Notes under the pieces: generated by a model | The model's database searches: none | The model's input: the letters and a program-made list of their open reading frames with translations, nothing else | What the model was told of the DNA's origin: nothing | Assembly: GCA_902555695.1 (NCBI GenBank) | Contig: CACDTV010000010.1 | Coordinates: forward strand, 1-43,369 | Direction: 5' to 3' | Length of the DNA: 43,369 nt | DNA from: an uncultured Alphaproteobacteria bacterium | GTDB taxonomy: Bacteria > Pseudomonadota > Alphaproteobacteria > HIMB59 | Position numbers and translations under genes: made by a program | Shown: positions 16,559 through 35,618 of the stretch, piece by piece | Numbering within the stretch: position 1 is the stretch's first letter | Layout of the letters: every line of letters begins with the position of its first letter

Positions 16559-16634
16559 GTTAGTCCCCTCCTAAAATTTAAATCTTATCGAATTGAAATT
16601 ATATGACCATAATATAAAATTACTACTTCAAATT

Positions 16635-16880
16635 ATGAATATTGATTACTTTAAAAAATCATGGATTAAATTTTACAAAAGAGGCTTTATGATGGGATTT
16701 TTTGTTTTAACTTTTATACTCACTGTTGATCAGTTTTTACAGACACCACTTTTTTTTAGTAAGATTACAGATATAAAAGTATTTATGTTCATTATATCCA
16801 CTATTTTTTTTGCAGCAGTTTTTTGTGGTCTTTTAGCAGTAATTTTTTTATCACTAATTATGATCGCTACTAAAAAATAA
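16635..16880 (+). CDS. small two-helix membrane protein, hypothetical
   Basis: An 81-residue frame from the ATG at 16635 (a TTG at 16593 would add 14 residues with no sign of conservation). After a basic N-terminal stretch (FKKSWIKFYKRGF) it has two hydrophobic segments at roughly 20-40 and 50-78. I do not recognise a family. It ends one base before the convergent amidotransferase stop, and fills an otherwise empty 300-bp gap. Codon use is ordinary for the region. Reality as a gene is likely but unproven. Confidence 0.5.
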   Translation: MNIDYFKKSWIKFYKRGFMMGFFVLTFILTVDQFLQTPLFFSKITDIKVFMFIISTIFFAAVFCGLLAVIFLSLIMIATKK

Positions 16881-17621
16881 TCACAATTTAATATTTTCTA
16901 ACCAATTCAGTAATTCAAGTTCTCTGTTAAATTGATCTTCATTTTCAAAACTTTGTAATTTATTTAATAATGCTTCAAATTCATTTTCACTCATAATCTT
17001 TAAATAATTTCTTTTCCAATATCTCATTAATTTACCGATATAGTTGTATGGTAGTTCTGGATGATATTGAGTACAAAATATGTTTTGTTTTTTATGACAT
17101 ATAGATTGAATAGAATGATTATTCTCAGAAATTATGTCAAAGTCCTTGGGAAGAGTTTCTAAACTATCGTAATGATGACCAGGGGCAGTAAATAAATTTT
17201 TTTTATTTTTATAAACAAAATGATTTTTTATAATTTTTATTTTTTCAGAATATCCAAACTCTGGACTCATAGAACTTGATATTTTTCCTCCAAATGCTGT
17301 TACAGCCACTTGAAGACCCCAACAACTTCCCCAAATTGGTCTTTCTAGAGTTGCTATTCTATCAAATATCTTCAACTGATTTTTATTGTGATCATTGTCA
17401 TCATAAATATTACCAAGACCTCCGGTCCATAAAAAGGCATCGTAATCTTCAAAACTAAATTTATTTACATCCTCAATGTAAGGTTTATAAACCGAGATAT
17501 TTGAGAGGGGATTTTGCTTTTTAATAATTTCTTCAAAAAAACTATATTGATAAGAAGAATTTGATTTAACATGTTCATTATCATGGTTTTTATCCATGCC
17601 ACTGATAATTAGTAAATTCAA
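16881..17621 (-). CDS. class I glutamine amidotransferase-like protein
   Basis: This 246-residue protein has the triad-type GATase1 fold: WTGGLG in the N-terminal half, nucleophile Cys100 in WGSCWGLQVA, and His187/Glu189 in TQYHPELP. It stands alone, without a synthetase domain. Such proteins hydrolyse gamma-glutamyl amides (PuuD-like) or work with a partner. Between a GS-fold ligase and amt, a role in releasing glutamate from a gamma-glutamyl amine is plausible, but that is inference from context. The last 40 residues are charged and helical. The gene is read in the same direction as amt and the small membrane proteins upstream. Confidence 0.85.
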   Translation of the reverse strand: MNLLIISGMDKNHDNEHVKSNSSYQYSFFEEIIKKQNPLSNISVYKPYIEDVNKFSFEDYDAFLWTGGLGNIYDDNDHNKNQLKIFDRIATLERPIWGSCWGLQVAVTAFGGKISSSMSPEFGYSEKIKIIKNHFVYKNKKNLFTAPGHHYDSLETLPKDFDIISENNHSIQSICHKKQNIFCTQYHPELPYNYIGKLMRYWKRNYLKIMSENEFEALLNKLQSFENEDQFNRELELLNWLENIKL

Positions 17622-18036: not shown

Positions 18037-19314
18037 TTACTGATATGCCTTGAGATTTAACTCAGCGCTATCAATACCTGCTTTTTGAACTGCATCTGGT
18101 ACACGTAACCAATTCATCATTTTCATAATAAATGATAAACCATAACCAGGTACAAATCCTACTAAGAACATGACTATACATCCAACTAACTGTCCACCAA
18201 AACTTGTTGGAGGAATATCACCAGATGCTGGATAGCCTGATGCAAATAATCCCATTGCAATCACACCCCATATACCGGCAACTCCGTGAACAGAGATAGC
18301 TCCTACTGGATCATCGATCTTGAAAACACTATGTAACCAATTATTCGCAGGAATAATTATCACACCGCCAACAAAACCAAGAACAAAGGCTAATCCTGGA
18401 TACCAAACATCAAGTCCCGACGCACAGGAGAATATACCTGCAAGTCCACCTGACATCATCCAGAATGGGTTACCTTTACTCATCCAAAATGCACCAATCA
18501 TTCCACCGCCAAGACCCATTAGGGTATTGAATGCGAAAGAAGATAGTGTTGCTGGAGCACCGTAAATGTTTATCCAACCACCAAACTCTGCACCTGCCCA
18601 GATTAAACAACCACCGAGGAATCCGAAGAAACCAACAATAATCATTAACAAGCCTATAAATGAGAAACGAAGGTCATGACCCTCAATCTCATTCGCAGAA
18701 CCGTCAGCATTGTATTTACCAACTCTAGGACCTAAGTTTAAGACAACTCCGAAAGCAAACCAACCTGCTACCATGTGAACAACACCAGCTGCTCCAACAT
18801 CATGATATCCAAATTGTGTTACTAACCATCCATCAGGATGCCAGCCCCATGAAGCGGCTAAGATCCAAGCTACTGATCCTAAAACAACAGCTAAGAAAGT
18901 AAATGAGCTAATTCTAATTCTCTCAAGAACAGATCCTGAAAAAATAGATGCTGTGGTACAAGCAAATAATGTAAATGCCGCCCAGAAAACACCTGTGGCT
19001 TGGTCACTTAACATTGGTCCCATTGATACGTTCCAAGGGGTTCCATAACCCTCTAGCTCAATAGGAGTAAATCCCATTGGGAATGCTAAATAAATATACC
19101 AACCAAATAACCAGAAGGTTGGTATCATAAACGCGAACGCTAAAAGGTTTTTTGTAGCTGAAGAGACCGCGTTTTTAAAACGAGACGATCCTACTTCATA
19201 CATCAAGAAACCTACGTGAATTGCAATCATTAACGCAGTACACCACCAATAGTAAGCTTCCATACTGACGTTCGCTTGCATCATCACGTACGATTCAAGT
19301 TCTTCAAGTGTCAT
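18037..19314 (-). CDS. amt: ammonium transporter Amt
   Basis: This is a 425-residue Amt/MEP/Rh-family channel for ammonium uptake with about eleven membrane helices. The twin histidines of the pore are seen at H180 (GAAGVVHMVAG) and H343 (AISVHGVAGIWG); the aromatic gate residues lie in the WAAFTLFAC region and in SSF/TLMG segments. There is no GlnK gene beside it. The start has a good ribosome-binding site (AAGGAG). It is divergent from gmaS with a 233-bp intergenic region, which suggests that ammonium uptake and methylamine use are controlled together. It may also import methylammonium. Confidence 0.96.
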   Translation of the reverse strand: MTLEELESYVMMQANVSMEAYYWWCTALMIAIHVGFLMYEVGSSRFKNAVSSATKNLLAFAFMIPTFWLFGWYIYLAFPMGFTPIELEGYGTPWNVSMGPMLSDQATGVFWAAFTLFACTTASIFSGSVLERIRISSFTFLAVVLGSVAWILAASWGWHPDGWLVTQFGYHDVGAAGVVHMVAGWFAFGVVLNLGPRVGKYNADGSANEIEGHDLRFSFIGLLMIIVGFFGFLGGCLIWAGAEFGGWINIYGAPATLSSFAFNTLMGLGGGMIGAFWMSKGNPFWMMSGGLAGIFSCASGLDVWYPGLAFVLGFVGGVIIIPANNWLHSVFKIDDPVGAISVHGVAGIWGVIAMGLFASGYPASGDIPPTSFGGQLVGCIVMFLVGFVPGYGLSFIMKMMNWLRVPDAVQKAGIDSAELNLKAYQ

Positions 19315-19547: not shown

Positions 19548-20855
19548 ATGGCAACAAACCTTCACCAATTTGCTAAAAAAAATGGTGTCAAATATTTTTT
19601 TGTAAGCTTTGTAGATTTATTTGGGGTGCTTAGATCAAAGCTTGTACCTGCAACAGCTATAGATGAAATTCAATCTGAAGGAGCTGGATTTGCAGGTTTT
19701 GCAACATGGCTTGATATGTCTCCAGCTGACTCTGATATGTTTGGTATGCCTGATGGTGATAGTGTTATCCAGCTTCCTTGGAATAAAGAAATAGCTTGGG
19801 TTGCATCTGATTTGTATATGGATGGTAAACCAGTAGAAGCTTCACCTAGAATAGCCTTAAAAAGACAAATAGAAAAAGCAGCTAAAAAAAATCTTTATAT
19901 GAAGTCAGGTGTTGAATGTGAATTTTTTTTGGTCAATGAAGACGGGACATCTTTATCAGATCAAAGGGATACGCAAGCAAAACCATGCTATGACTCCTCT
20001 GCTTTAATGAGAAGATATCATGTTATCACTGAGATATGTGACTCAATGATTGCCCTAGGATGGAAACCTTACCAAAACGATCATGAAGATGCGAATGGGC
20101 AATTTGAAATGAACTGGGATTTCTCGGATTGTTTAGTAACAGCAGATAGACATGCTTTTTTTAAATTCATGGTGAAATCTATTGCAGAAAAACATTCACT
20201 AAGGGCAACTTTCATGCCCAAACCTTTTACAAATTTAACAGGTAATGGATGTCATTGTCATATTTCTATTTGGGATAAATCTGGCAAAAAAAATATGTTT
20301 TTAGATAAAAAAGATGAATTAGGTTTATCCAAAACTGGTTATAATTTCTTAGGTGGAATAATGGAAAGCGCGGACAAAATGGCTGCTGTTTTTAACCCAA
20401 CTGTAAACTCCTATAAAAGAATTAACGGTAGTGTAACAACATCAGGTGCAACATGGTCGCCAAGCTCGATTACTTGGGCAGGTAACAACAGGACACACAT
20501 GGTAAGAGTTCCTGGAGCAGGAAGATTTGAATTAAGATTAATGGATGGAGCTACAAATCCTTATTTACTTCAAGCAGGTATTTTACTTTTAGGTTTGGAC
20601 GGTTTAAATAATAAAAGAGACCCTGGAAAACGATTAGATATTAATATGTACACAGAGGGTCACAAGGCTGGGAAAGTAAAAAAATTGCCATTAAATCTTC
20701 TTGATGCAATACGTGATTTTGATAAATCAAAAATCATTAGAGCAGGTTTTGGTGATGATTTAGTCAATAGCTATGTAAAATTAAAAAATCAAGATTGGGG
20801 TACTTTTAATAAACACCTTTCTAGTTGGGAAAGAGAAACAACTCTAGATTGTTAA
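19548..20855 (+). CDS. gmaS: gamma-glutamylmethylamide synthetase GmaS
   Basis: GmaS joins methylamine to glutamate with ATP, the first step of the indirect N-methylglutamate route. The 435-residue GS-fold protein strongly resembles roseobacter GmaS as I recall it, including the opening MATNLHQFAKKNGVKYF and GAGFAGFATWLDM. Catalytic positions are present: Asp23 in FVDLFG, GVECEFFL, EDANGQFEMNW, GNGCHCHIS and GRFELRLMD. A good ribosome-binding site (GAGGAG) precedes the ATG. It is divergent from amt and followed after 7 bp by an uncharacterised gene. The rest of the pathway (mgs, mgd) lies 9-16 kb downstream on the other strand. Confidence 0.92.
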   Translation: MATNLHQFAKKNGVKYFFVSFVDLFGVLRSKLVPATAIDEIQSEGAGFAGFATWLDMSPADSDMFGMPDGDSVIQLPWNKEIAWVASDLYMDGKPVEASPRIALKRQIEKAAKKNLYMKSGVECEFFLVNEDGTSLSDQRDTQAKPCYDSSALMRRYHVITEICDSMIALGWKPYQNDHEDANGQFEMNWDFSDCLVTADRHAFFKFMVKSIAEKHSLRATFMPKPFTNLTGNGCHCHISIWDKSGKKNMFLDKKDELGLSKTGYNFLGGIMESADKMAAVFNPTVNSYKRINGSVTTSGATWSPSSITWAGNNRTHMVRVPGAGRFELRLMDGATNPYLLQAGILLLGLDGLNNKRDPGKRLDINMYTEGHKAGKVKKLPLNLLDAIRDFDKSKIIRAGFGDDLVNSYVKLKNQDWGTFNKHLSSWERETTLDC

Positions 20856-20862
20856 ATTATTA

Positions 20863-21417
20863 ATGACACCTGAAGTTTTACAAGAAAAGTTTCTTGATTG
20901 GCAATGTCAATCTAGAATTCAGGCATTTAGAACACAAAATGGTAGACCAAACTCATCTATGGCACCAATATTGCTTGATAAGAAAGGAAATGAACTTCTA
21001 AGAATTATTGTTGTAATTTCAGAAAATGATCCTGTAAACACGACAAAACTATTTGAACACACATTTAAACGAACTTACGATCCAGCTGATCGATTTGATA
21101 AAATGAATAAATTTTTATCTTCTGAATATTTTATGGATAAAGATAAATTTTCAGACTCTTTATTTGCTACTTTTCCAAAAAATTCAAGCATCTCAAAAAA
21201 AGTAGTTAAAGATGGCTCATGTATTTTAGATTTTATTCACCTTTCTACAAATTATAGATTGTCATGTTCTCCTTTTATTCTCGATAAAAATGAGGAACAT
21301 TGGGAAAATATTTTTTGGCATAATAAAAATTTTAATCCTGGTTTGGGGAATGACATAGATGTTATAAAGTTTATTCCAAATTGGAAAAAATCTAAATTAA
21401 TAAGAATTAAAGATTAA
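20863..21417 (+). CDS. conserved-looking protein downstream of gmaS, unknown function
   Basis: This 184-residue protein starts 7 bp after gmaS and is surely cotranscribed. It is soluble, with no signal peptide or membrane helix; it contains repeated aromatic/charged segments (FKRTYDPADRFDKM, EEHWENIFWHNKNF) and no catalytic motif I recognise. The position suggests an accessory role in methylamine use. A strong terminator follows. Calling it an enzyme would go beyond the evidence. Confidence 0.75.
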   Translation: MTPEVLQEKFLDWQCQSRIQAFRTQNGRPNSSMAPILLDKKGNELLRIIVVISENDPVNTTKLFEHTFKRTYDPADRFDKMNKFLSSEYFMDKDKFSDSLFATFPKNSSISKKVVKDGSCILDFIHLSTNYRLSCSPFILDKNEEHWENIFWHNKNFNPGLGNDIDVIKFIPNWKKSKLIRIKD

Positions 21418-21464: not shown

Positions 21465-21941
21465 TTACTCAACTAACTTAAAGTTCTCACCCTTAGCGTA
21501 TGTTCTTTTTAACTGTACCAAGGGATGATTAGGTGACATTTGAAACTTAATTAAAAGTTCTCTTGCTAACATATCTCTATCTTGTTGGTTTTTTGGAAGT
21601 TTAATCTTCTTTGGCAAAGTGATCCAAGCGTTTGCATTTCTGTCAAACACAGCAGGGGTATCACCTTCAAAACCCATATGGATGTCCTCTAACCAATTTA
21701 AATCATCCCAACCCATAATTTCGATATATTGTTTAAGAAATGGTGTTAAGTGCTTGTAATCAGGAATTAAGTTAACATCATAACGATAGCCAATATGCTG
21801 GCCAATCATTTTTTCTCTTGATGTTTTAATTTCCTTATCTTTTAATTTAGCTCCGCCGACAACTTGATAACCTTTTGACTTAGTAGGTTTTTTTGATTTT
21901 GCAGAAGTTGATTTCTTTTTTGTAACTTTCTTCTTAACCAT
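21465..21941 (-). CDS. Lys-rich-tail protein at end of glx operon, unknown function
   Basis: This 158-residue protein begins with about 25 residues dominated by Lys, Ser and Thr (VKKKVTKKKSTSAKSKK), followed by a globular part with GQHIGYRYDVNLIPDY, MGWDDLNWLEDIHMGFEGD and a C-terminal helix-rich stretch. No known domain comes to mind. It starts 9 bp after the glxD stop and is the last gene of the six-gene operon. The globular part looks like a small protein-binding or regulatory subunit, and the basic tail could bind nucleic acid or membranes; both are guesses. Confidence 0.8.
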   Translation of the reverse strand: MVKKKVTKKKSTSAKSKKPTKSKGYQVVGGAKLKDKEIKTSREKMIGQHIGYRYDVNLIPDYKHLTPFLKQYIEIMGWDDLNWLEDIHMGFEGDTPAVFDRNANAWITLPKKIKLPKNQQDRDMLARELLIKFQMSPNHPLVQLKRTYAKGENFKLVE

Positions 21942-21950
21942 AATACTCTC

Positions 21951-23285
21951 CTAAATTGAGTGGTAGTTATCTACACCTACTGTTAAATCTGTACCAGCTA
22001 ATGGAACTTTAGCCATTGCTGATGACTCCATTGTCAATGCAGCTAGATCTTCTGGCTCAAGTGAGTGAATGTTTGTCTTTCCACATGCTCTTGCTAACAT
22101 TTGGCACTCAAGAGTCATAGTGCTAAGCAAATTATAAACTCTTTCTGCTGCCTCTGTTGGGTCTAATCTACTTCTAAGAACAGGATCCTGTGTGGCCACA
22201 CCAACTGGACATCTACCAGTATGACAATGATAGCAGTAACCTGCCTCCACTCCCATTTCTTTTTCATAATCAGCTTCTGGAATATCTTTGTTACAGTTCA
22301 GTGCTACTAATCCAGCTGTACCGATAGCAATAGCATCTGCCCCAAGAGCTAAGGCTTTAGCCATATCAGCTCCATCTCTAATACCTCCAGCAAATACCAA
22401 TGATATTTCACCAGTTTTACCAACATCGTCCAAAGCTCTTCTTGCTTCTCTAATTGCCCCAATACCAGGAATACCAGTATTAGCTGCTGCGATGTGTGGG
22501 CCAGCTGCTGTTGAGCCTTCCATAGAGTCTAAAAATATAGAGTCAGGGTCACATTTTGCTGCCATTCTGACATCGTCATAAACTCTTGATGCTCCTAACT
22601 TCAATTGAATTGGTACTTGATTGTCAGTTAATTCTCTTAATTCTTGAACCTTAAGAGCTAAATCGTCTGGTCCCATCCAGTCTGGGTGTCTAGCAGGAGA
22701 TCTTTGATCAATACCAGCAGGCAACGATCTCATCTCAGCTACTTGGTCAGTAACTTTCTGGCCCATTAGGTGACCGCCCATCCCAACTTTTTGACCTTGG
22801 CCAATGAAAACCTCAATGGCGTCAGCTAATTGAGCATGGTGTGGGTTGAAGCCATACCTGGATTGAATACATTGATAATACCATTTGTGAGAGTACCTTC
22901 TCTCATCAGGTATCATACCCCCTTCTCCAGAGCAAGTTGCACTTCCAGCCATTGATGAACCTCTAGCTAAAGCAGTTTTTGCTTCATAAGAAAGAGCACC
23001 AAAACTCATACTTGTTATGTAAACAGGAATATCAAGTTTGATAGGGTTTTTTGCTCTAGGACCTATTATTGTTTCTGTTAGACACTTCTCTCTGTAACCT
23101 TCAATAACAAATCTTGTTAATGTGCCTGGTAAAAAAACTAAATCATCCCAGTGAGGAATTTTTTTCATTAACGCCATACCACGCATACGATAACGACCAA
23201 GTTGTGATTTGATATGAATGTCGTCCATTACCTCGGGGGTAAAAATTGAGTTTTGTCCTAATAATTGTGTATTACGTTTTGCCAT
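21951..23285 (-). CDS. glxD: GlxD: FMN-binding glutamate-synthase-domain protein (set 1)
   Basis: This 444-residue protein corresponds to the FMN/synthase domain of glutamate synthase. Visible features are the FMN-barrel segments FGALSYEAKTALARG, GEGGMIPDERR, LKLGASRVYDD and FAGGIRDGADMAKALALGADA, and a cysteine cluster C-x2-C-x4-C in YCYHCHTGRCPVGVATQDP, the place of the 3Fe-4S cluster in glutamate synthases. With GlxB and GlxC it forms the three parts of a split glutamate-synthase-like enzyme. It overlaps glxC by 1 base. In the N-methylglutamate route the equivalent subunit moves an amine from a glutamyl amide to 2-oxoglutarate; the substrate here is unknown. Confidence 0.9.
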   Translation of the reverse strand: MAKRNTQLLGQNSIFTPEVMDDIHIKSQLGRYRMRGMALMKKIPHWDDLVFLPGTLTRFVIEGYREKCLTETIIGPRAKNPIKLDIPVYITSMSFGALSYEAKTALARGSSMAGSATCSGEGGMIPDERRYSHKWYYQCIQSRYGFNPHHAQLADAIEVFIGQGQKVGMGGHLMGQKVTDQVAEMRSLPAGIDQRSPARHPDWMGPDDLALKVQELRELTDNQVPIQLKLGASRVYDDVRMAAKCDPDSIFLDSMEGSTAAGPHIAAANTGIPGIGAIREARRALDDVGKTGEISLVFAGGIRDGADMAKALALGADAIAIGTAGLVALNCNKDIPEADYEKEMGVEAGYCYHCHTGRCPVGVATQDPVLRSRLDPTEAAERVYNLLSTMTLECQMLARACGKTNIHSLEPEDLAALTMESSAMAKVPLAGTDLTVGVDNYHSI

Positions 23286-24121
23286 TAGCCTAATATTCCT
23301 TTCTTTTCTGCTGGCTCTAGATTGTCATAATTCCAGAGCATTCTTCCTGCAACGTATTTCTTAAATTTTGAAGCTGGGACCTTGCAATCAATCTCAGCAT
23401 TTTTAATTTTTTGTTCTAGCCATCTAACCTCGTGTTCATTCATTTCACCAGGTACGCAGTCTGTTCCAAGCGAATGAGGCTCTCCTCCTACAAAAATGAT
23501 TCCATCATACATTGAGTCACCCATGTTTGCGTTTACATCACCACAAACGATAATTCTTCCTCTTTGCATCATAAATCCAGTGTAAGCTCCAGCATTTCCG
23601 CCAATAAGAATAGTGCCACCTTTCATATCAATTCCAGTTCTTGCACCTGCATCGCCTTTAACTATAAGGTCACCGCCTCTAAGAGCAGCTCCAAAACAAG
23701 ATCCTGCATTGTTTTCAACAACAACTTTTCCTGACATCATATTTTCAGCACATGACCAACCAACTCTTCCGTTAACTCTCACTGTTGGTCCATCGATACA
23801 ACCGATACCAAAATAACCTAAGCTACCCTCAAAGATTAAGTTTAACTTATTTAGAATTCCCACACCAAGTGAGTGTTTTGCACCAGGGTTTTTAATAACT
23901 ATAGACCCATATCCCTTTCGAATTGCATCTCTAATTTTTTGATTCAAGTCATGAGCATCGATGCCTTCACAATCAATGGAGGTTCTTTTATTAAAATCAA
24001 CTTCGTGATTACCGTAGTAGGTATAATTTTCTTCTTCTGTTACTTCAAAATATAATTTTTGCGATCTACCTGATAAATTTTCATCATCAAAAGCAGTAGT
24101 TCTTTTTGTTATGCCTGCCAT
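23285..24121 (-). CDS. glxC: GlxC: glutamate synthase GXGXG-domain protein (set 1)
   Basis: This 278-residue protein is a right-handed beta-helix built of repeated glycine-rich turns (GGDLIVKGDAGARTG, GGTILIGGNAGAYTG, GRIIVCGDVNANMGD), matching the C-terminal GXGXG domain of glutamate synthase large subunits. It is about 50 residues longer than the second GlxC in this window, mainly through an N-terminal extension. It overlaps glxB by 13 bases and glxD by 1, suggesting translational coupling into one complex. Confidence 0.9.
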   Translation of the reverse strand: MAGITKRTTAFDDENLSGRSQKLYFEVTEEENYTYYGNHEVDFNKRTSIDCEGIDAHDLNQKIRDAIRKGYGSIVIKNPGAKHSLGVGILNKLNLIFEGSLGYFGIGCIDGPTVRVNGRVGWSCAENMMSGKVVVENNAGSCFGAALRGGDLIVKGDAGARTGIDMKGGTILIGGNAGAYTGFMMQRGRIIVCGDVNANMGDSMYDGIIFVGGEPHSLGTDCVPGEMNEHEVRWLEQKIKNAEIDCKVPASKFKKYVAGRMLWNYDNLEPAEKKGILG

Positions 24122-25050
24122 ACTTTTACCTCCGCTTCATAAGGGTCATATGTTTTAATTTCGTGAGGAAATATATTCCTAATTGCAACTTCCTCTGATG
24201 CACATGCTACGATGTCTTTACTTTCGTAGATTACCATTGGCTTAGCGGCCATGTGGTCTTTGGCCATTCCCAACTGATCCTTTGTTGCTACAACATATGT
24301 AAAAACTCCATCGAGCTCATCCAAGCTATCATGCATAGCTTTTTCTAGTTCAATACCGTTAGCCATCTTATCAGCTATGTAGACAGCAATTATTTCTGAG
24401 TCACAATTTGAATTAAACCTGTAACCTTTTCTTTCAAGTACTCTTCGATTGCCCCAATAATTAGTCAATTGACCATTGTGAACAACTGACACATCCTCAA
24501 AAGGGAAAGCCCAATAAGGGTGTGCAGATTTAATATCTACATCAGACTCGGTAGCCATCCTTGTATGGCCAATACCGTGTGTACCCATAAATTTATCAAG
24601 GCCATATTGATTGGATACAGTATTTGCATCGCCTAAGTCTTTAATGAGTTCAAGACCCTTACCAATTGATAAAATTTCAGTTTTTTCGACTGTTTCTATC
24701 TCAGTAGCCAAATCTGTGAGGTCACCTTTAAAATCAAATATATATCTGAAAGCGTATGGGGTGCTGGAGCTTTCTTTTGTTACTTTAGCACCATGTTTTT
24801 TTAAAATAGAGTCGACAGCATTTTTTCTATTTTTTAAATCAGCAGGTGAGTCGACAGTTGCATTTACCTTTTCAGCCTCGTTTTCAGATATTTTAAATCT
24901 CATTACGAAGCCTTTTTTTAAAGGTGTTCCGTACATAGCATATCCTGTTGAGTCAGGTCCCCTATGTTTAAGACCTTGTAACATAAGGCCCATTTGTTCA
25001 CCGACGTTGACTGTCTTCTTTTTATTTATAACTCCAGCTATTCCACACAT
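24109..25050 (-). CDS. glxB: GlxB: class II glutamine amidotransferase subunit (set 1)
   Basis: This N-terminal-nucleophile amidotransferase has 313 residues. Met is followed by Cys2 (MCGIAGVI), which is the catalytic residue after Met removal; HRGPDSTGYA, GIGHTRMAT, AHPYWAFP and VVHNGQLTNYW are the other GATase II motifs. It would release an amine or ammonia from a gamma-glutamyl amide and pass it to GlxD. It lies between the GS-fold gene and glxC, with a GGAG ribosome-binding site. Confidence 0.93.
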   Translation of the reverse strand: MCGIAGVINKKKTVNVGEQMGLMLQGLKHRGPDSTGYAMYGTPLKKGFVMRFKISENEAEKVNATVDSPADLKNRKNAVDSILKKHGAKVTKESSSTPYAFRYIFDFKGDLTDLATEIETVEKTEILSIGKGLELIKDLGDANTVSNQYGLDKFMGTHGIGHTRMATESDVDIKSAHPYWAFPFEDVSVVHNGQLTNYWGNRRVLERKGYRFNSNCDSEIIAVYIADKMANGIELEKAMHDSLDELDGVFTYVVATKDQLGMAKDHMAAKPMVIYESKDIVACASEEVAIRNIFPHEIKTYDPYEAEVKVWQA

Positions 25051-25069
25051 ACTTTTCTCCTATCTTATC

Positions 25070-26539
25070 TTATGGTAAGCAATCTAGGTATTTATCGAGA
25101 TCCCATTGAGTCGGAGTTGCTAAAAATTCTTCCCACTCATCTCTTTTATACTCCATAAACACTTTCATCATGTCACCTGGTAGAGCATCTTGTATTACCT
25201 TGTCGGTTTCTAATCGATCTAATGCCTCACCAAGAGTCATTGGTAATTTTTCAACTTGCTTACCAGCTTTCATTTGTTCATACATATTTTGTTGTTCAGG
25301 TTTGCCTGGATCCATTTTCTTTGAAATACCATGATCGAATGCTTTCAACAGACCGCTTCCCATTAAGTATGGGTTGTGGGCTGAGTCAACTGATCGATAT
25401 TCAAATCTACCAGGGGCAGATACCCTTAAACCACAGGTTCTGTTTTGATATCCCCAGTCCGCATAAACTGGAGCCCAAAAACCTGTATCCCAAAGTCTTC
25501 TATATGAATTCACAGTTGAGGAACCCAAGGCTGTTAAAGCAGGAAGGTGTTCCATAACACCACCAATGGCTTGAAGGCCTATTTTTCCAGGAATTCTTCT
25601 ATCTTTTCCGTCTGGCATAAAGACATTTGTACCTCCCCTACGGTGATGAAATACATTTTCCATACCTGGGATAGTCTTGTTACCACATGGTATTAACTCA
25701 TCTTTTCCGCCCTTCCAGAGTGAAATATTTGTGTGACACCCAGAAGCAGACACGCCAACAAATGGTTTACTCAAAAAACAAGCAATCAAATTAAATTCTC
25801 TTGCTACTTGAGCACAGATTTGTCTGTAAGTTGATAACCTGTCAGCGTTTCTAACAACATCATCGTAGTTGAAATTTAGTTCTAATTGTCCAGGCGCGTC
25901 CTCATGGTCACCTTGGATAATGTCCAAGCCCATTGCACGTGAATACTCAATTACTTTCATGTAAACAGGTCTTAATGATTCAAATTGATCAATGTGATAG
26001 CAATAGGGCTTAGAGAAACCTGAACCGGTCGGTGAACCATCTTCGTTTTTTGTTAACCACATCATTTCAGGTTCTGTCCCTGCTCGTAATTCTAGTTTGT
26101 GTTTCTTTTTAAATTCTTCGTGGGCTCTTTTTAAGTTGCCTCTGCAATCAGATGTAAGATATCCACCAGGATCTTTTTCTTCTTCCCTGTTTCTAAAACA
26201 AGTACAAAAAACTCTGGCAATTCTTTTATCCCATGGAATTTGAACAAATGTTTCAGGGTCAGGTATACCCACTAATTCGTGAGCCTCTGGTCCATAACCT
26301 ATGTAATCACCATGTCTATTTGTAAATAGATTAGCAGTAGCTCCATAAACTAATTGGAAACCTTTATTGGCTACACTCTCCCAATGATCTGCAGGAACAC
26401 CTTTACCTACAATTCGACCTGTAACAGAAATAAATTGATAATAAATGTACTCAATTCCTAATTTATCAATTTTTTTTCTAACTTGTTTTATATAGTCTTG
26501 TCTCTTTTTATCCTTAACGTACGTTTCTAGCGCTGTCAT
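25070..26539 (-). CDS. GlnT-like GS-fold protein with altered ammonium site
   Basis: This 489-residue protein of the GS fold is of the GlnT type often found beside glxBCD. Metal/ATP residues are kept: GTEPEMMWL, EDAPGQLELNF, SGCHTNIS and GRFEYRSVD. The segment FISVTGRIVGK, however, has Ser38 where GmaS (FVDLFG) and the 465-residue homologue (WIDFLG) have Asp, the residue which in assimilatory GS deprotonates ammonium. It is therefore unlikely to be an ordinary glutamine synthetase and may ligate an amine to glutamate. It follows the FAD oxidoreductase by 21 bp and precedes glxB by 19 bp, with a GGAGGAGG ribosome-binding site. Confidence 0.87.
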   Translation of the reverse strand: MTALETYVKDKKRQDYIKQVRKKIDKLGIEYIYYQFISVTGRIVGKGVPADHWESVANKGFQLVYGATANLFTNRHGDYIGYGPEAHELVGIPDPETFVQIPWDKRIARVFCTCFRNREEEKDPGGYLTSDCRGNLKRAHEEFKKKHKLELRAGTEPEMMWLTKNEDGSPTGSGFSKPYCYHIDQFESLRPVYMKVIEYSRAMGLDIIQGDHEDAPGQLELNFNYDDVVRNADRLSTYRQICAQVAREFNLIACFLSKPFVGVSASGCHTNISLWKGGKDELIPCGNKTIPGMENVFHHRRGGTNVFMPDGKDRRIPGKIGLQAIGGVMEHLPALTALGSSTVNSYRRLWDTGFWAPVYADWGYQNRTCGLRVSAPGRFEYRSVDSAHNPYLMGSGLLKAFDHGISKKMDPGKPEQQNMYEQMKAGKQVEKLPMTLGEALDRLETDKVIQDALPGDMMKVFMEYKRDEWEEFLATPTQWDLDKYLDCLP

Positions 26540-26560
26540 TTTATTCCTCCTCCTTTTACA

Positions 26561-27907
26561 TCAACTCCAAGGGAACGGGCTCTTTGAAACCGGATGTAAC
26601 TTCCCTTCTTCATAACGAGAAAATCTAAAAGGTTCTAGAATTTCAGATTTCTCACCAAGTAACTCATTAGATACAAGATCACCTAACCCAGCCATTTTGT
26701 ATCCATGGTTTGCATCAGCTATAATATATACGTTTTCTCTGTATCGGTCGAATACGGGAAAACGATCTGGAGTAACACAGCCAATACCGCCAGCTTTTTG
26801 CTTTTTGTATTTAGCGTGACATCCATCAAATTGCTTTTGGCAAAAAGCCAAAGCTGAGGTCCATTTATCCTCAAAAGAAGCCCTTGGTTGAAACTCATCT
26901 GAGTCATGACCATAAGGGTCAAGACTTATGTCATTTACAGGTTTATTTATGTCATATGGAGAGGAACCGCCTTGTATACCATCTCTGTAGACATCGGGCT
27001 TATAGTAAAAACCCCACATAACATTTTCATGTATAACATCTCCTGTTTTATTTGAGACAAGTGTAGCTTCTGTATCAACATGAATAACTGGGTACTCAGT
27101 TCCGTTTGCTGTTTTATAACTTCTTGGATCAACTTCCAACTCACCCTCTTCAAGCGCCATGTATGACCACATAGGTATATCATCAGTAAATGATCCATCA
27201 GGTTTTTTTATTTTTACGGTGTTAGGTAATTCTAAAATTTCCCAGAATTTTCTTACCCATGGACCAGCCGCAACAACTAATTGAGTGCATTCAATTTTAC
27301 CCTCTGATGTTTCTACAGCCGAAACTGCGCCACTACCATTAGAAGAAATTAAATTGTTAACAGTCACACCTTCTAAAACTTTTGCACCAGCCGATACTGC
27401 TAACTTATGGAAGCCCTCTATAGCTCCTCTATTAGCTCCATATCCTGTTTTCTTTTCGTGTAAAACTGAAGTGATGCCTTGAGCTTGCCAATCTGGCAAC
27501 ATGTCTTTCATATACTTATCACAATCAGATGCTCCCTCGATAAACTCAGAGTCAAATCCTATTTCTTTTTGCTGCTCATAAACTTCAGACATGCCCTCTT
27601 GCATAAGCTCGGAGTTGATCTGCATATAGCCAACTGGCTTGTAAGTTAAAGCCTCAGCATTCTCATTCCAAACATTTACAGAATGAGCCATTAGTCTTCT
27701 CATTGCAGGCTGGTAGTAGTTGTTCCTTACAATTCCACATGCAACACCACTAGCTCCATTTGCAACTTTGGATTTTTCCAAAACGACTACAGAATTATCT
27801 TTGAGTTGGCCTTTGCTGGATAATTTTTTACAAAGATGCCATGCGGTGCTCAGACCGTGAATTCCAGCCCCGATTATTAAATAGTCACATTTAGTAGGTA
27901 AGCTCAT
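26561..27907 (-). CDS. DAO-type FAD-dependent oxidoreductase heading the glx operon
   Basis: An approximately 448-residue flavoenzyme with the Rossmann FAD motif GAGIHGLSTAW near the N-terminus and the D-amino-acid/sarcosine oxidase layout, ending with GGIGCVTPDRFPVFDR and ANHGYKMAGLGDL. I start at the ATG at 27907 because GGAGG lies about 11 bp upstream of it; an ATG at 27964 would add 19 unlikely residues and would run into the operator palindrome. Enzymes of this family oxidise secondary or tertiary amines such as sarcosine or N-alkyl amino acids. By analogy with Mgd it may oxidise an N-substituted glutamate made by GlxBCD; the substrate is inferred. Confidence 0.85.
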   Translation of the reverse strand: MSLPTKCDYLIIGAGIHGLSTAWHLCKKLSSKGQLKDNSVVVLEKSKVANGASGVACGIVRNNYYQPAMRRLMAHSVNVWNENAEALTYKPVGYMQINSELMQEGMSEVYEQQKEIGFDSEFIEGASDCDKYMKDMLPDWQAQGITSVLHEKKTGYGANRGAIEGFHKLAVSAGAKVLEGVTVNNLISSNGSGAVSAVETSEGKIECTQLVVAAGPWVRKFWEILELPNTVKIKKPDGSFTDDIPMWSYMALEEGELEVDPRSYKTANGTEYPVIHVDTEATLVSNKTGDVIHENVMWGFYYKPDVYRDGIQGGSSPYDINKPVNDISLDPYGHDSDEFQPRASFEDKWTSALAFCQKQFDGCHAKYKKQKAGGIGCVTPDRFPVFDRYRENVYIIADANHGYKMAGLGDLVSNELLGEKSEILEPFRFSRYEEGKLHPVSKSPFPWS

Positions 27908-27962
27908 TATTTTAGTAACCTCCAAGCAATTACATTTTGTCTGCGAGGTATGAAAAAAACAC

Positions 27963-27989
27963 ATTTTGTTTCATATTATGAAACAAAAT
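27963..27989. promoter_or_regulatory. 27-bp perfect palindromic operator of the glx operon
   Basis: ATTTTGTTTCATA, then T, then TATGAAACAAAAT: a perfect 13-bp inverted repeat with a 1-base centre. The core TTGTTTCA-N5-TGAAACAA is shared with sites at 28813 and 36932. It lies directly after a probable -10 box on the minus strand, about 55 bp before the oxidoreductase ATG, the place expected for a repressor site. Confidence 0.8.
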
Positions 27990-28024: not shown

Positions 28025-28795
28025 TCAATTGGCAACAATTAGTCGAGAAATTTTAATAGAGGCAGATTGAAGGAGATCAACATAATCCATCATAGTTTTT
28101 GGGTTTAAGATATTTTTACTTCCTGATAAAGCGATTCCGGCAAATGATCTTTTATCTTTGTCTAAAATAGCAACTCCTATTCCATAAGAGTTTTCAAAAG
28201 CTTCTCCATGATTAAGCGCATAACCGTTAGTTCTAATTTTGCCAAGTTGTCTTTTTAAATCATTTAAATTTGTAATTGTATTGTTTGTGTGAGGATAAAA
28301 ATTATAGCTTCGATAAATTGTTGCAATTTCATTTTCAGGTCTGTACGCAAGCATGACTTTTCCCAAAGCACAGCAATGAGCGTCAAGTCTCATTCTAAAA
28401 GTTCTAATAGTTGCATCATCATTGTTGTCAGAAATTTTATCAGAATGAACTATTTGAGAGCCTTCAAGCATAGCCAAATAGGTAATTAAATTCGTTTTAC
28501 TGGAGACCTCTTTTAGAATTTCTTTAGAGGTCTCAGAAATTGACTGAAGATAATCTGAAGTTTCTCCAAATTGAAAAGCTTTATGCCCCATAGTGTATGT
28601 ATTCGATCCAGTATTTTTATGGATATAACCAAGTTGAGATAAAACAGACAATAGTCTAAATGTAGTTGTTCTAGATAAAACTGCTTTTCTGGAAATATTT
28701 GATGCCTTCAACGGGAAAATTGATTTTGATAAAATTTCAAGAATTTTAAAAGATTTTTCCAGAGATTTATTAATATATTTTAAATCTTGTTGCAA
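28025..28795 (-). CDS. IclR-family transcriptional regulator
   Basis: A 256-residue regulator: a winged helix-turn-helix at about 10-75 (LEKSFKILEILSKS, then SRTTTFRLLSVLSQLGYI) and the IclR ligand-binding domain, with RTFRMRLDAHCCALGKVMLA and YALNHGEAFENSYGIGVAI as hallmarks. The start is TTG at 28795, preceded at 7 bp by GGAGG. A promoter and an inverted repeat lie upstream. It sits between the two amine operons and its candidate operator occurs before all three transcription units around it, so it very likely controls them and itself. The effector is unknown; an amine or N-methylated glutamate is a reasonable guess. Confidence 0.9.
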   Translation of the reverse strand: MQQDLKYINKSLEKSFKILEILSKSIFPLKASNISRKAVLSRTTTFRLLSVLSQLGYIHKNTGSNTYTMGHKAFQFGETSDYLQSISETSKEILKEVSSKTNLITYLAMLEGSQIVHSDKISDNNDDATIRTFRMRLDAHCCALGKVMLAYRPENEIATIYRSYNFYPHTNNTITNLNDLKRQLGKIRTNGYALNHGEAFENSYGIGVAILDKDKRSFAGIALSGSKNILNPKTMMDYVDLLQSASIKISRLIVAN

Positions 28796-28812: not shown

Positions 28813-28831
28813 TGTTCCACAGAATGAAACA
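28813..28831. promoter_or_regulatory. IclR-type operator upstream of iclR
   Basis: TGTTCCA-CAGAA-TGAAACA: 7-bp half-sites with one mismatch and a 5-bp spacer, the same as the sites at 27963 and 36932. It abuts the -10 box of the iclR promoter on its downstream side, which predicts autorepression. Confidence 0.75.
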
Positions 28832-28865: not shown

Positions 28866-30185
28866 TTAAATCTTACCAGGCACCCAACCGGTTCCCGCTA
28901 AAGGAACTCTAGCCATTGCAGCAGCTTCAACTGTTAATGCACATAGGTCCTCAGGTTCAAGATTATGTAAATCGTTTTTACCACATGCCCTCGCTATAGT
29001 TTGGGCTTCAAGAGTCATAACCTTGAGATAATTAGATAATCTTTTTCCACCTTTTACTGGATCTAATCTTTTCATTAATTTTGGATCTTGTGTATTTATT
29101 CCTGATGGGTCTTTACCTTCATGCCAATCATCGAAAGCACCAGCTGTTGTTCCAAGTTTTTTGTAATCGCTCTCCCACTTTGGGTCATTATCACCAAGTG
29201 CGATTAATGCTGATGAACCAATGGAAACAGCATCAGCACCCAATGCCATAGCTTTTGCAACATCCGCACCATTTCTAATTCCACCTGAAATAATTAACTG
29301 AACCTTCCTGTGCATATCTAAGTCTAATAAAGCATCTACTGCTGGCCTGATACATGCCAATGTTGGCTGACCTACGTTTTCGATAAATACCTCTTGTGTA
29401 GCTGCAGTACCTCCTTGCATGCCATCAAGCACCACCACATCAGCACCGGCTTTTACTGCAAGTGCAGTATCGTAGTAAGGCCTAGATCCTGCAATTTTTA
29501 CAAATATGGGAACTTTCCAACCTGTTATTTCCCTGAGTTCTAAAATTTTAATTTCCAAATCATCTGGTCCAGTCCAATCTGGATGTCTACATGCTGATCT
29601 CTGATCAATTCCTTTTGGTAATGTTCTCATCTCGGCAACACGATCACTTATCTTTTGACCGAGTAACATACCTCCACCGCCAGGTTTAGCACCTTGACCT
29701 ATCACAACTTCAATAGCATCTGCTTTTCTTAAATCCTCTGGATTCATTCCATACCTTGAGGGAAGTAATTGGTAAACCAAATGCTTTGATTGTCCTCTCT
29801 CCTCAGTGGTCATGCCTCCATCGCCTGTTGTCGTTGAAGTCCCGGCAATACTAGCTCCTCTTCCAAGCGCTTCTTTCGCTGGTCCTGAGAGAGCTCCAAA
29901 GCTCATTCCAGCAATTGTTATTGGAATATCTAATTCAAGCGGTTTTTTTGCAAATCTTGTTCCAAGAGTGACGTTAGTACTACACTTTTCTCTGTAGCCT
30001 TCTAAAGGGTATCTTGACATTGATGCGCCTAAAAAAAGAAGATCGTCAAAATGAGGTAATCTTTTTTTTGAACCACCGCCTCTAATGTCATAAATACCTG
30101 TTTCTGCAGCTCTTCGAATTTCAGAGTTTGTATAGTCATCAAATGTCCAAGATTTTCTGGGTGTAGTTTTAAATTTTTCTGCCAT
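28866..30185 (-). CDS. mgsC: N-methylglutamate synthase subunit C (GlxD-type, set 2)
   Basis: This 439-residue protein with the FMN/synthase domain of glutamate synthase includes FGALSGPAKEALGRG, GDGGMTTEERG, VKIAGSRPYYD and ISGGIRNGADVAKAMALGADA. It is a clear paralogue of the GlxD at 21951-23285, but the cysteine cluster there is replaced here by AFDDWHEGKDPSGINTQDP with no Cys, so no Fe-S cluster is expected at this site. It is the last gene of the mgd-mgs operon and overlaps the preceding gene by 1 base. It is assigned to N-methylglutamate synthase because of its place after mgdABCD. Confidence 0.85.
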   Translation of the reverse strand: MAEKFKTTPRKSWTFDDYTNSEIRRAAETGIYDIRGGGSKKRLPHFDDLLFLGASMSRYPLEGYREKCSTNVTLGTRFAKKPLELDIPITIAGMSFGALSGPAKEALGRGASIAGTSTTTGDGGMTTEERGQSKHLVYQLLPSRYGMNPEDLRKADAIEVVIGQGAKPGGGGMLLGQKISDRVAEMRTLPKGIDQRSACRHPDWTGPDDLEIKILELREITGWKVPIFVKIAGSRPYYDTALAVKAGADVVVLDGMQGGTAATQEVFIENVGQPTLACIRPAVDALLDLDMHRKVQLIISGGIRNGADVAKAMALGADAVSIGSSALIALGDNDPKWESDYKKLGTTAGAFDDWHEGKDPSGINTQDPKLMKRLDPVKGGKRLSNYLKVMTLEAQTIARACGKNDLHNLEPEDLCALTVEAAAMARVPLAGTGWVPGKI

Positions 30186-30868
30186 TAGTACTCCGATACA
30201 TTATCTATATTAAAATTATAAAGTTTTCTTGCTGAACCATACATTTTGAAGTTTTTAATCTCACTTTCATTTATACTTGCTTTTTTTAAAAGAGATCTCA
30301 AAATATTTTGATCTTTTTTATTCATTTTTTTCTCTTCGCAGTCAGCACCGAGTGATTTCACCTTACCCTTAATAAAAATATTTGCTTCATAGATACTGTC
30401 TCCCAGAGCGTCTCCAGCATCTCCACATATAACTAAGTTTCCAGATTGAGCCATAAATGCAGACATATGGCCTACCGATCCTTTAACTATAATATCTATT
30501 CCTTTCATTGAAATCCCACAACGTGAACTAGTATCACCATCAATGATCAAAGTTCCACCATGTGCTGTAGCACCGGCTGATTGGGATGCATTGCCCTTAA
30601 CATGAACAGTTCCAGACATCATATTTTCGGCAACACCTGTGCCCACATTTCCATTTACAATGATATTTGCATTCATGTTCATACCAGCACAATAGTATCC
30701 TGTGTGACCATCAATAGTGACTTCAATCTCGTCTTTTAATCCAGCACAAATAGCGTGATTTCCATCTGGATTTGAAATTTTAAAAATCTTTTTATTTGAT
30801 TTTCTATCTATACTTTGAAGAGTTTCATTAACTTTCCTCAATGACTCTTTTTTTAAATTTAAATTCAT
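30185..30868 (-). CDS. mgsB: N-methylglutamate synthase subunit B (GlxC-type, set 2)
   Basis: This 227-residue GXGXG beta-helix protein has GGTLIIDGDTSSRCG and GNLVICGDAGDALGD type turns. It has the length usual for MgsB/GlxC, about 50 residues shorter than the other copy in this window. It overlaps both neighbours by 1 base. It acts with the amidotransferase-like and FMN subunits to form N-methylglutamate. Confidence 0.85.
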   Translation of the reverse strand: MNLNLKKESLRKVNETLQSIDRKSNKKIFKISNPDGNHAICAGLKDEIEVTIDGHTGYYCAGMNMNANIIVNGNVGTGVAENMMSGTVHVKGNASQSAGATAHGGTLIIDGDTSSRCGISMKGIDIIVKGSVGHMSAFMAQSGNLVICGDAGDALGDSIYEANIFIKGKVKSLGADCEEKKMNKKDQNILRSLLKKASINESEIKNFKMYGSARKLYNFNIDNVSEY

Positions 30869-31749
30869 TATTTGCCCCAGCTATATACTTTTCCGGGCTC
30901 TGGTTCAAAAATTTTTGCTGAATTTACATTTGGTAAATGTGCCATTGCTTGAAACTCTGAGGCAATAGCAACATAATCCTTTGTTTCTGCAACAACTGCG
31001 GGCTTACAAGCAATCTCATCTCTAACAATTGCCATGCCATTTTTGGTTCCAGAAATAAATGTGTAAAAACCATCGAGGTCCTTCAGTCCATCCAAAAGTG
31101 TTTCTTTTAGTGATTTTTTGTCAGATAATCCGTTTGAAATATAACCTGCAGCGACTTCCGTATCATTCATGGACTTTATTTCAATCCCTTTTTTCTGAAG
31201 CGATCTTCTTAAATTGTTATGATTTGACAAGGATCCGTTATGTACAAGACATTCATCCTCACCTGTGGAATATGGATGAGAGCCATCTGTCGTGATTGCA
31301 CTTTCTGTTGCCATCCTTGTATGCCCAATAGCATGTGAGCCAGAAAACTTCTCTAGTGAAAAATTTTTAACAACATCCTTTGGATTTCCCACTTGTTTAA
31401 ATATTTCTATGCAACTACCATAACCAACTAAACTTAATTCTTCATGGTTTTTTAAAATTTCTATAAATTTCTTAGGCTTCATTGCTGTTTCAATTATTAA
31501 ATGATCTGAAATAGATTTTACTTTGATATCTTTTACATGCCTAGATAGTTTTTTTGAAATTTCTTTTACCTGATCAGTATTAGAGCAGACTGAATATTTA
31601 TATTTCTTTTTTTTCTCAGATGAGTATATCGCAAAACCTGCACTATCAGGACCACGCGTAGCCATACTATTCATCATCCCAGTGAGAAATTTACCTAATT
31701 GTGAATTGTATTTTTTATTTTTTAAATATATTCCAACTATACCACACAT
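30868..31749 (-). CDS. mgsA: N-methylglutamate synthase subunit A (GATase II, set 2)
   Basis: This 293-residue class II amidotransferase has catalytic Cys2 (MCGIVGIY), RGPDSAGFAIY, AIGHTRMATE, HPYSTGEDECLVHNGSLSNH. In the N-methylglutamate pathway this subunit is thought to cleave gamma-glutamylmethylamide and pass on methylamine. It starts 5 bp after the soxG-like gene, within the same operon. It is clearly divergent from the set 1 GlxB, so the duplication is old or one set was acquired. Confidence 0.87.
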   Translation of the reverse strand: MCGIVGIYLKNKKYNSQLGKFLTGMMNSMATRGPDSAGFAIYSSEKKKKYKYSVCSNTDQVKEISKKLSRHVKDIKVKSISDHLIIETAMKPKKFIEILKNHEELSLVGYGSCIEIFKQVGNPKDVVKNFSLEKFSGSHAIGHTRMATESAITTDGSHPYSTGEDECLVHNGSLSNHNNLRRSLQKKGIEIKSMNDTEVAAGYISNGLSDKKSLKETLLDGLKDLDGFYTFISGTKNGMAIVRDEIACKPAVVAETKDYVAIASEFQAMAHLPNVNSAKIFEPEPGKVYSWGK

Positions 31750-31754
31750 TAAAA

Positions 31755-32351
31755 TTAAATACCCTCATACCCATACTCTAATGACGAGTCAGTAATGCTA
31801 TGGTAAAAAGAACCACCAAAACTTCTTAATGCATAAAGGTTAAAACAAAACGGTTGGTCGTCTAAATAGTCGATCAATATGTTAATGCCGTTATATGTAG
31901 TGTTCACGCAATTATTTGGTTTAAACATATTTTCATTAAAATTTATTGGAGAACCTTTTTTTAAAACATTTTTTGCATTTGCGCCTGATATTTGTAATAC
32001 AGCTCTTGATTGTGAAATATCTGTAATAGCAAAATCCTGATCTCTAATCGATTTGTAAATTTCGTCTTTCAAGTCAATTTTTTTTGAGATAATTAACCAG
32101 GTATCAGGACCGGTCCACAATACTCTTGTTTCTTGGTTGTGAGAAACTTTTAGGCTTTCTGTCGGTAAATTAAGTTGATTTATGGTAACTTTTTCAATCT
32201 CAATTGAGCTTTTTTTAAATTTAGCAATTTGGAAAATACTTAGGTCTTTTATTTCCGAAATTTTTAATAGGTTTTCTTTATTCTCATGGTCGCCAAACAA
32301 GCCGAGCTTATGATCAAAATGAAGTGGTGATAGATTTTGAGCTTGTTCCAT
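31755..32351 (-). CDS. mgdD: N-methylglutamate dehydrogenase / sarcosine oxidase gamma subunit
   Basis: This 198-residue SoxG-type protein has the short GcvT-like fold; recognisable pieces are LWTGPDTWLI, ITDISQSRAVLQISG and the C-terminal FNLYALRSFGGSFYHSI. It is structural, stabilising the heterotetramer. It overlaps the alpha subunit gene by 1 base. Sarcosine oxidase and N-methylglutamate dehydrogenase cannot be separated by sequence at this level; the downstream mgs genes favour the latter. Confidence 0.83.
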   Translation of the reverse strand: MEQAQNLSPLHFDHKLGLFGDHENKENLLKISEIKDLSIFQIAKFKKSSIEIEKVTINQLNLPTESLKVSHNQETRVLWTGPDTWLIISKKIDLKDEIYKSIRDQDFAITDISQSRAVLQISGANAKNVLKKGSPINFNENMFKPNNCVNTTYNGINILIDYLDDQPFCFNLYALRSFGGSFYHSITDSSLEYGYEGI

Positions 32352-35615: not shown

Positions 35616-35618
35616 CTA

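Follow-up and report, generated by a model that had tools for sequence, protein, structure and literature searches.

The window analysed here, 43,369 nucleotides of contig CACDTV010000010.1 from an uncultured alphaproteobacterium of the HIMB59 lineage, carries on the minus strand at 21465–27964 an operon for a flavin oxidase of the DAO type, a glutamine synthetase (GS) homolog termed GSx, a split glutamate synthase (GlxBCD) and a protein of 158 amino acids (aa), in this order. An earlier note on the same DNA had described a six-gene operon, and the open reading frames agree: all six lie on one strand and are separated by no more than 21 bases or overlap by no more than 13. The Pfam domains in the operon are DAO, Gln-synt_C, GATase_6/7, GXGXG and Glu_synthase, and an identical or almost identical gene order is seen across many alphaproteobacterial families. 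On one side follow genes for an IclR regulator, the mgsCBA and mgd sets of the N-methylglutamate pathway, tmm, a stand-alone GcvT gene, tdm for a trimethylamine N-oxide (TMAO) demethylase, and a gene for a transporter; the opposite side holds the gene of a 184-aa protein, gmaS and amt. The features of the operon and its control region are:

26561–27964, minus strand: DAO, single-chain flavin adenine dinucleotide (FAD) oxidase (Pfam DAO, 121.7 bits), proposed N,N-dimethylglutamate demethylating oxidase/dehydrogenase
25070–26539, minus strand: GSx, GmaS-like amine ligase (Gln-synt_C), proposed gamma-glutamyl-dimethylamide synthetase
24109–25050, minus strand: GlxB, class II glutamine-amidotransferase subunit, MgsA-like (GATase_6/7)
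23285–24121, minus strand: GlxC, GXGXG subunit, MgsB-like (PF01493)
21951–23285, minus strand: GlxD, flavin mononucleotide (FMN) glutamate-synthase subunit, MgsC-like (PF01645; CxxCxxxxC motif)
21465–21941, minus strand: 158-aa protein, last gene of the operon (alignment of 27 rows; no Pfam or NCBIfam match)
27967–27985: palindromic operator of 19 bases before DAO
28025–28795, minus strand: IclR-family regulator (IclR_C and HTH_IclR)
28813–28831: operator before the regulator gene
36932–36950: operator between mgdA and tmm

The earlier note had placed the operon under the same operator as the methylamine genes, and sites are indeed present both before DAO and between mgdA and tmm. Allowing up to three mismatches, the palindrome TGTTYCATANTATGAAACA occurs in the window at positions 27967, 28813 and 36932 only; counted on both strands there are six matches compared with a mean of 0.37 in shuffled sequence, and none of 100 shuffles reaches six. 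The scan covered the window and the retrieved loci of relatives, where the site before DAO is kept with at most two mismatches in 32 out of 33 HIMB59-type loci (L007–L039); in L030, the contig ends at this point. Two divergent relatives have a weaker match between amt and gmaS, with three mismatches in L035 and four in L036; the latter site is weak, because matches with four mismatches turn up at unrelated places in several loci. From the position of its gene, the IclR protein is the probable ligand of the operator. Through the shared operator, the operon is connected with this organism's methylamine genes.

Ligase, synthase and oxidase

According to its sequence, GSx is a ligase of the amine-ligase type. 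Its score against the NCBIfam model gln_synth_III (TIGR03105) is 300.9 bits, below the curated cut-off of 469.6, and therefore we do not call it a GmaS. The pocket residues of RhGmaS, as given in PMC7948447, were compared in 45 GSx rows with at least 60% identity to the window protein (near-copies included); 11 rows from other GS groups and six GSx rows below 60% were tallied apart. Y147, Q175, D177, E179, E186, N188, W300 and R312 are kept in 45/45 rows; K30 is present in 44, the remaining row having a gap. Gly replaces N176 in all 45, and Val replaces A48 in 44, again with one gap. In the other GS groups, Q175 is found in none of the 11 rows and D177 in one. The six distant GSx rows (37–59% identity, other gene contexts) have D177 in six cases, Q175 in five and Gly176 in five; these features thus mark a wider GSx clade and do not alone indicate dimethylamine (DMA). 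In the phylogenetic tree, GSx forms a single separate group (support 100/100) outside the GmaS clade and joins GmaS and a further homolog from the window, GS15161, at 97/94, though branches are long and the deeper joins unsure. GmaS itself accepts DMA, with a Km of 16 mM versus 27 µM for monomethylamine (PMC7948447), so that a DMA ligase of the same fold is chemically reasonable.

Among plasmid records, the best GSx relatives (37–53% identity) occur beside P450, aldehyde-dehydrogenase or FAD-oxidoreductase genes and branch outside the operon clade; no glx set was seen in the four plasmid stretches around them, and plasmid matches to DAO are weak, about 21–30% identity among the rows listed. 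One such relative (37%), on the Gordonia plasmid pGKT2, runs into an FAD-dependent oxidoreductase gene beside cytochrome P450 genes, a locus which we take to be the xplA/xplB explosive-degradation cluster. GS15161, the third GS homolog of the window, also scores below the gln_synth_III cut-off and is without the Q175/D177 pair of GmaS; its neighbor near amt, in the same stretch (15161–17621), is a 246-aa gene, labelled class I amidotransferase by eye.

GlxBCD has all three domains of the MgsABC type: GATase, GXGXG and Glu_synthase. The N-terminal MCGI motif is found in 101 of 102 GlxB rows, and CxxCxxxxC in 54/54 distinct GlxD sequences. MgsC is of two kinds: four of 27 distinct sequences have CxxCxxxxC and 23 are without it, among them the MgsC of the window (28866–30185) and one, from locus L178, with a partly kept motif. 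In the FMN domain of glutamate synthase, this motif is a ligand of a 3Fe–4S cluster. GlxBCD and Mgs synthases are thus likely to differ often in an iron–sulphur cluster, judging by the motif.

For the oxidase, the earlier note had described a single chain with no folate-binding GcvT domain, in agreement with our Pfam scan, which finds the DAO domain only; in the same scan, no Dmm domains (PF22289, DmmA; PF11927, haem subunit) were found in the operon. The nearest NCBIfam model is soxB (TIGR01373), with 65.6 bits well under its cut-off of 529.45. Relatives of DAO were matched in 498 stretches of genome contigs and confirmed in 490. Among the best 80 of these 490, which were analysed, the closest in named genomes come from single-cell genomes titled 'uncultured Alphaproteobacteria' and one titled Pelagibacteraceae; 'alpha proteobacterium HIMB59 isolate MED-G104' follows with 86% identity, and Pelagibacteraceae/SAR11 with 53–56%. 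For DAO, a start about 19 codons downstream of 27964 is possible: alignments of SAR11-type relatives mostly begin at residue 13–23, though those of the nearest relatives begin at residue 1.

Some DAO relatives stand in other surroundings. The relative in genome G159 (L124) adjoins a Rieske oxygenase gene, for which carnitine monooxygenase is the best match among solved structures (96.7 bits); a gene resembling a reductase with Fer2 domain and one resembling serine hydroxymethyltransferase lie near it. In G178 (L122), the relative has a gamma-glutamyltranspeptidase gene on one side and an MmgE/PrpD gene on the other. A metagenome-assembled genome titled Actinophytocola (L178/L073) contains DAO in a compact trimethylamine (TMA) cluster on one contig, together with mgsABC, a GmaS-like gene (40%), mgd-like genes, tdm in two frames, a class I amidotransferase gene, tmm and further one-carbon genes labelled by eye; no second GS/Glx set was found on this contig.

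Association with TMAO demethylase

The distribution of the genes was examined in 240 alphaproteobacterial genomes, drawn evenly, with an own cut-off per gene. GSx is present in 23 genomes, DAO (at least 50% identity) in 23, Tdm in 15, GmaS in 36, MgsC (at least 68%) in 29 and DmmA in three; GSx and DAO occur together in 20. Excluded from these counts are five genomes with DAO matches below 50% (G074, G056, G148, G028, G184), a sub-cut-off match to PF22289 (G121) and two partial Tdm matches, G022 (45%) and G088 (38%); if G022 were counted, there would be one more Tdm genome that lacks both GSx and DmmA, and if G088 were counted, one more that has DmmA. The MgsC count includes G224, a partial sequence at a contig end.

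GSx is found in 14 of the 15 Tdm carriers versus nine of the 225 other genomes (Fisher's exact test, p = 7e-16). Collapsed to families, GSx occurs in ten of 11 families with Tdm, with p between 1.7e-9 and 9e-11 when the total number of families is assumed to be 120 to 160. The association holds within the genomes that contain GmaS (10/11 Tdm carriers versus 6/25 others, p = 2.7e-4) as well as in those without it (4/4 versus 3/200). Among the 15 Tdm carriers, 14 have GSx, 13 DAO and 11 GmaS. The sole Tdm carrier of the draw without GSx, G159, possesses Dmm genes; its family of 12 genomes includes five further Tdm carriers, three with GSx and two, G242 and G244, with neither GSx nor DmmA. All 20 distinct Tdm carriers thus comprise 17 with GSx, one with Dmm and two with neither: the rule that Tdm is accompanied by GSx is strong, but not absolute. 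PF22289 was not detected in the genome of the window itself (71% complete) or in G030 of the same genus (99% complete). The former contains an isolated 237-aa PF11927/HODM-like gene (C3:4309–4821), with no Dmm partner subunits in the 3.5-kb stretch retrieved with it.

Gene neighborhoods reveal the same linkage. Of 46 SAR11-type loci, all chosen by their DAO, 43 have the Tdm gene within 6 kb upstream in the same orientation; in two it lies further away, and one locus is cut. The usual order is tdm, DAO, GSx, glxBCD, the 158-aa gene, amt and then gmaS or, in some loci, mgsABC. Of the 14 genomes of the draw that carry both genes, seven, representing five families, have Tdm and GSx on the same contig, within 17.2 kb, and the remaining seven have them on separate contigs. 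Next to glxDCB-GSx in G247 stands a whole TMA cluster with tdm, transporter genes and tmm; the usual DAO is missing there, and another DAO-family gene adjoins tdm. In G176, DAO immediately precedes an mgdA-like gene (64% identical), and in G185 the gene after the operon encodes a formate-tetrahydrofolate ligase. Such neighbors suggest that methylamines and one-carbon units are used, and the tie of the operon to methylated amines and Tdm is, as an association, well supported.

The earlier note had asked whether relatives carry the operon without gmaS: at our cut-off, seven of the 23 GSx genomes are without GmaS, including three with a completeness of 95% or more. In 22 of the 23, the GlxD of the operon is 50–54% identical to the MgsC of the window and thus misses the 68% threshold for MgsC orthologs; in G193, the contig with the operon ends and only MgsC was found. 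GlxD-like genes that do not adjoin GSx (G001, G081, G194, G196, G229) were left unassigned.

In the window, the operon is accompanied by the following genes:

39747–42098, minus strand: Tdm, TMAO demethylase, proposed supplier of DMA (883.7 bits to the solved TMAO demethylase 9q59; contains GcvT)
38561–39730, minus strand: stand-alone GcvT-type folate-binding protein (PF01571, 157 bits)
37049–38383, plus strand: Tmm, trimethylamine monooxygenase (matches to solved sequences)
31755–36875, minus strand: mgd set (SoxG-, SoxA- and SoxB-like subunits), N-methylglutamate dehydrogenase
28866–31749, minus strand: mgsCBA, N-methylglutamate synthase set
20863–21417, plus strand: 184-aa companion protein (predicted FMN/heme split-barrel fold, pLDDT 79.9)
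19548–20855, plus strand: GmaS, gamma-glutamylmethylamide synthetase (gln_synth_III, 645 bits; RhGmaS 7cql, 611 bits)
18037–19314, minus strand: Amt-family transporter; relatives adjoin the operon in several genomes

GmaS, Mgs and Mgd had all been claimed for the window. The first two are present as described; Mgd is there as three subunits, which our searches could not separate from sarcosine oxidase. The subunit at 35619–36875 matches solved sarcosine-oxidase beta chains with 485 bits, and hence the name Mgd rests on the location between tmm and mgsABC. The label Tmm derives from 14 solved sequences matched at E 1e-40 or better: 13 are named monooxygenases, one of them trimethylamine monooxygenase.

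The two small proteins differ in how well they can be modelled. For the 158-aa protein, the structure model is weak (pLDDT 57), and its family profile has one match among solved structures (E 0.065). The model of the 184-aa protein aligns best with the PNPOx-like structure 3db0 (VIA-align, Z 9.9, root-mean-square deviation 2.9 over 115 residues), and a family profile search of solved structures gave no match. Trp-Gln-Cys and His-Asn are invariant over its 12 aligned rows, and relatives adjoin the operon in many other families. A carbon-nitrogen hydrolase gene adjoins tdm in two loci (L117, L163) and the 158-aa gene of a glx set in another (L161).

A proposed route for dimethylamine and its rivals

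How SAR11 bacteria, which are among the most abundant in the ocean, use the DMA released by Tdm is a gap in the literature. According to Lidbury et al. 2017 (PMC5520151), dmmDABC is absent in all SAR11 representatives, from which a potential metabolic bottleneck was inferred. A 2022 study (PMC8918994) reports growth of strain HTCC1062, which is without dmm, with TMAO as the only source of nitrogen, though weaker than growth with ammonium, and suggests an isoenzyme. We think it somewhat more probable than otherwise that the operon encodes a glutamate-mediated DMA route via N,N-dimethylglutamate, beside the N-methylglutamate route for monomethylamine; DMA rather than another amine is the likely substrate. 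In our searches of an open-licence library, we found no earlier proposal of gamma-glutamyl-dimethylamide or N,N-dimethylglutamate as intermediates.

With substrates and reactions that we infer at every step, the route would begin with Tdm, which would convert TMAO to DMA. GSx would join DMA to glutamate at the expense of ATP, giving gamma-glutamyl-dimethylamide; GlxBCD would free the amine and build N,N-dimethylglutamate on its FMN subunit. DAO would then release one N-methyl group as formaldehyde, leaving N-methylglutamate, and Mgd would pass the second methyl group onto folate and regenerate glutamate. The stand-alone GcvT protein (38561–39730) could possibly capture the formaldehyde in trans. 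Free monomethylamine would never be formed, and GmaS would consequently be needed only for external monomethylamine; the GSx genomes without GmaS (7/23) fit such a route.

Several known systems resemble this scheme. The N-methylglutamate pathway agrees with it in the three roles, its ligase and synthase subunits are homologous, and in the window it lies adjacent and under the same operator. The operon differs from it by a separate ligase clade, the Cys motif of GlxD and its own gene order with the 158-aa protein; furthermore, MgdABCD has several subunits with a GcvT domain, whereas the operon has one DAO chain without GcvT. DmmDABC/HODM would occupy the same metabolic position after Tdm, and all 15 Tdm carriers of the draw have either GSx or DmmA, none both. 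The proteins, however, are unrelated: Dmm works with a haem subunit plus a reductase and sets monomethylamine free, which the proposed route would not do. A dmmA deletion strain of Ruegeria pomeroyi DSS-3 is reported to fail on the Dmm substrate and its precursors and to grow on methylamines further down the pathway (PMC13390433). With dimethylglycine dehydrogenase and sarcosine oxidase (SoxB, MSOX), the operon DAO shares the DAO flavoprotein family and, as a proposal, N-methyl removal from an N-methylated amino acid; it is distant in sequence and has no fused folate domain.

From the missing GcvT domain, the earlier note had guessed that the carbon leaving is probably not a methyl group captured on folate; that no methyl group leaves is probably wrong. 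Because the operon is linked with Tdm, whose product is DMA, N-methyl removal is the leading reading, and the missing fused domain is not decisive, since the stand-alone GcvT protein and the GcvT-containing Tdm lie nearby. The same note had seen a complete set parallel to the N-methylglutamate pathway. A ligase of the amine type, a synthase and an oxidase are there and share their operator with the methylamine genes; the completeness does not extend to the six genomes with both GmaS and GSx that have the operon GlxD only.

What is more challenging is the evidence that weighs against the DMA route. Two genomes of high completeness, G242 (96%) and G244 (100%), carry Tdm without GSx, DmmA or DAO, so that other solutions exist, and nine of the 23 GSx genomes have no Tdm. 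The mutual exclusion of Dmm and GSx is by itself non-significant (three Dmm genomes, p = 1). A shared lifestyle may partly be behind the association of Tdm with GSx: genomes are not independent, and the collapse to families is a partial remedy. The oxidase does not strictly follow the ligase, as GSx occurs without a DAO ortholog in G071, G077, G193 and G247, and DAO without GSx in G159, G178 and G064 (where a contig ends); given the neighboring Rieske oxygenase in G159 and gamma-glutamyltranspeptidase gene in G178, the DAO family has other substrates as well. The exchange of Asn176 for Gly is not specific to the operon, being present in five of the six distant GSx rows from other contexts. Finally, G016, G034, G163, G185, G207 and G228 possess GmaS and GSx with the operon GlxD as the sole GlxD-family gene at cut-off; G207 is a single contig, 99% complete and SAR11-type by gene order. 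With a single gene of this family found, one GlxBCD probably serves both ligases in these six genomes and is not dedicated to DMA. G081, another genome with both ligases, has a second GlxD-like gene elsewhere.

The genomes without Tdm also bear on the reading of the earlier note, which we rank second and consider unlikely: the operon would glutamylate another amine, e.g. ethylamine, ethanolamine, taurine or a polyamine, and build the corresponding N-substituted glutamate, from which the oxidase would free the matching aldehyde. GmaS is broad in specificity, with a Km of 58 µM for ethylamine (PMC7948447), and the distant GSx relatives (37–53%), which sit in plasmid clusters with P450, aldehyde dehydrogenase and class I amidotransferase genes, share most pocket residues. 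Yet these plasmid relatives fall outside the operon clade, and another amine would leave unexplained the association with Tdm, the adjacency to tdm in SAR11 and the operator shared with tmm and mgd.

The six genomes with a single GlxD speak for a second route for monomethylamine, which we rank third and regard as rather improbable. GSx would be a GmaS for high affinity or low nitrogen, GlxBCD an N-methylglutamate synthase – as it probably is in those six genomes – and DAO a folate-free N-methylglutamate oxidase; the Pfam DAO domain is common to DAO and the MgdA-like subunit. The earlier note knew of no assigned substrate, but for SAR11 one had been proposed: in the part of Sun et al. 2011 accessible to us (PMC3160333), glxBCD (SAR11_1313–1315) is hypothesised to encode an N-methylglutamate synthase. 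The glxBCD-glnT genes described there are apparently the same gene set, to judge from the described operon and other SAR11 loci, with monomethylamine and not DMA as the proposed substrate. Under this explanation, 16 of the 23 GSx genomes would have two ligases for one substrate, the DMA gap would stay unfilled, and GmaS is less tied to Tdm (11/15) than is GSx (14/15).

It is more doubtful still that DAO oxidises free DMA to monomethylamine and formaldehyde, with GmaS acting next and GSx and GlxBCD serving something else. The actinobacterial contig described above, where DAO is accompanied by genes of the Tmm, Tdm, Mgs, GmaS-like and Mgd-like types but not by another GS/Glx set, fits this idea, but the known substrates of the DAO/SoxB family are amino acids, not free alkylamines. 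Four genomes with Tdm and GSx but without GmaS would halt at monomethylamine, although only one of them, G077, is at least 95% complete; moreover, GSx follows Tdm slightly better than DAO does (14 versus 13 of 15). In favor of the idea, a predicted general amine oxidase that HTCC1062 expresses under nitrogen limitation is named as an unconfirmed candidate for DMA oxidation in PMC5520151. Very improbable, lastly, is an ammonium-assimilating GS/GOGAT variant or a regulatory pseudo-enzyme GSx, either without an alkylamine substrate: the glutamate-synthase motif kept in GlxD (54/54) and the Amt gene near the operon in several genomes would suit it, but the amine-pocket residues of GmaS are kept in GSx, and the operon is linked to Tdm, Tmm and Mgd genes.

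The operon stands regularly beside tdm in the retrieved SAR11-type loci. Whether a monooxygenase-independent DMA pathway via gamma-glutamyl-dimethylamide and N,N-dimethylglutamate is widespread in Alphaproteobacteria, and the marine bottleneck largely an artefact of searching for dmm only, we hold to be evenly balanced. DMA feeds marine aerosol formation. If the proposed route is correct, the marine DMA bottleneck would shrink or vanish, metagenomic counts of DMA users would need redoing with GSx as a marker, and N,N-dimethylglutamate would be a new intermediate in marine nitrogen metabolism.

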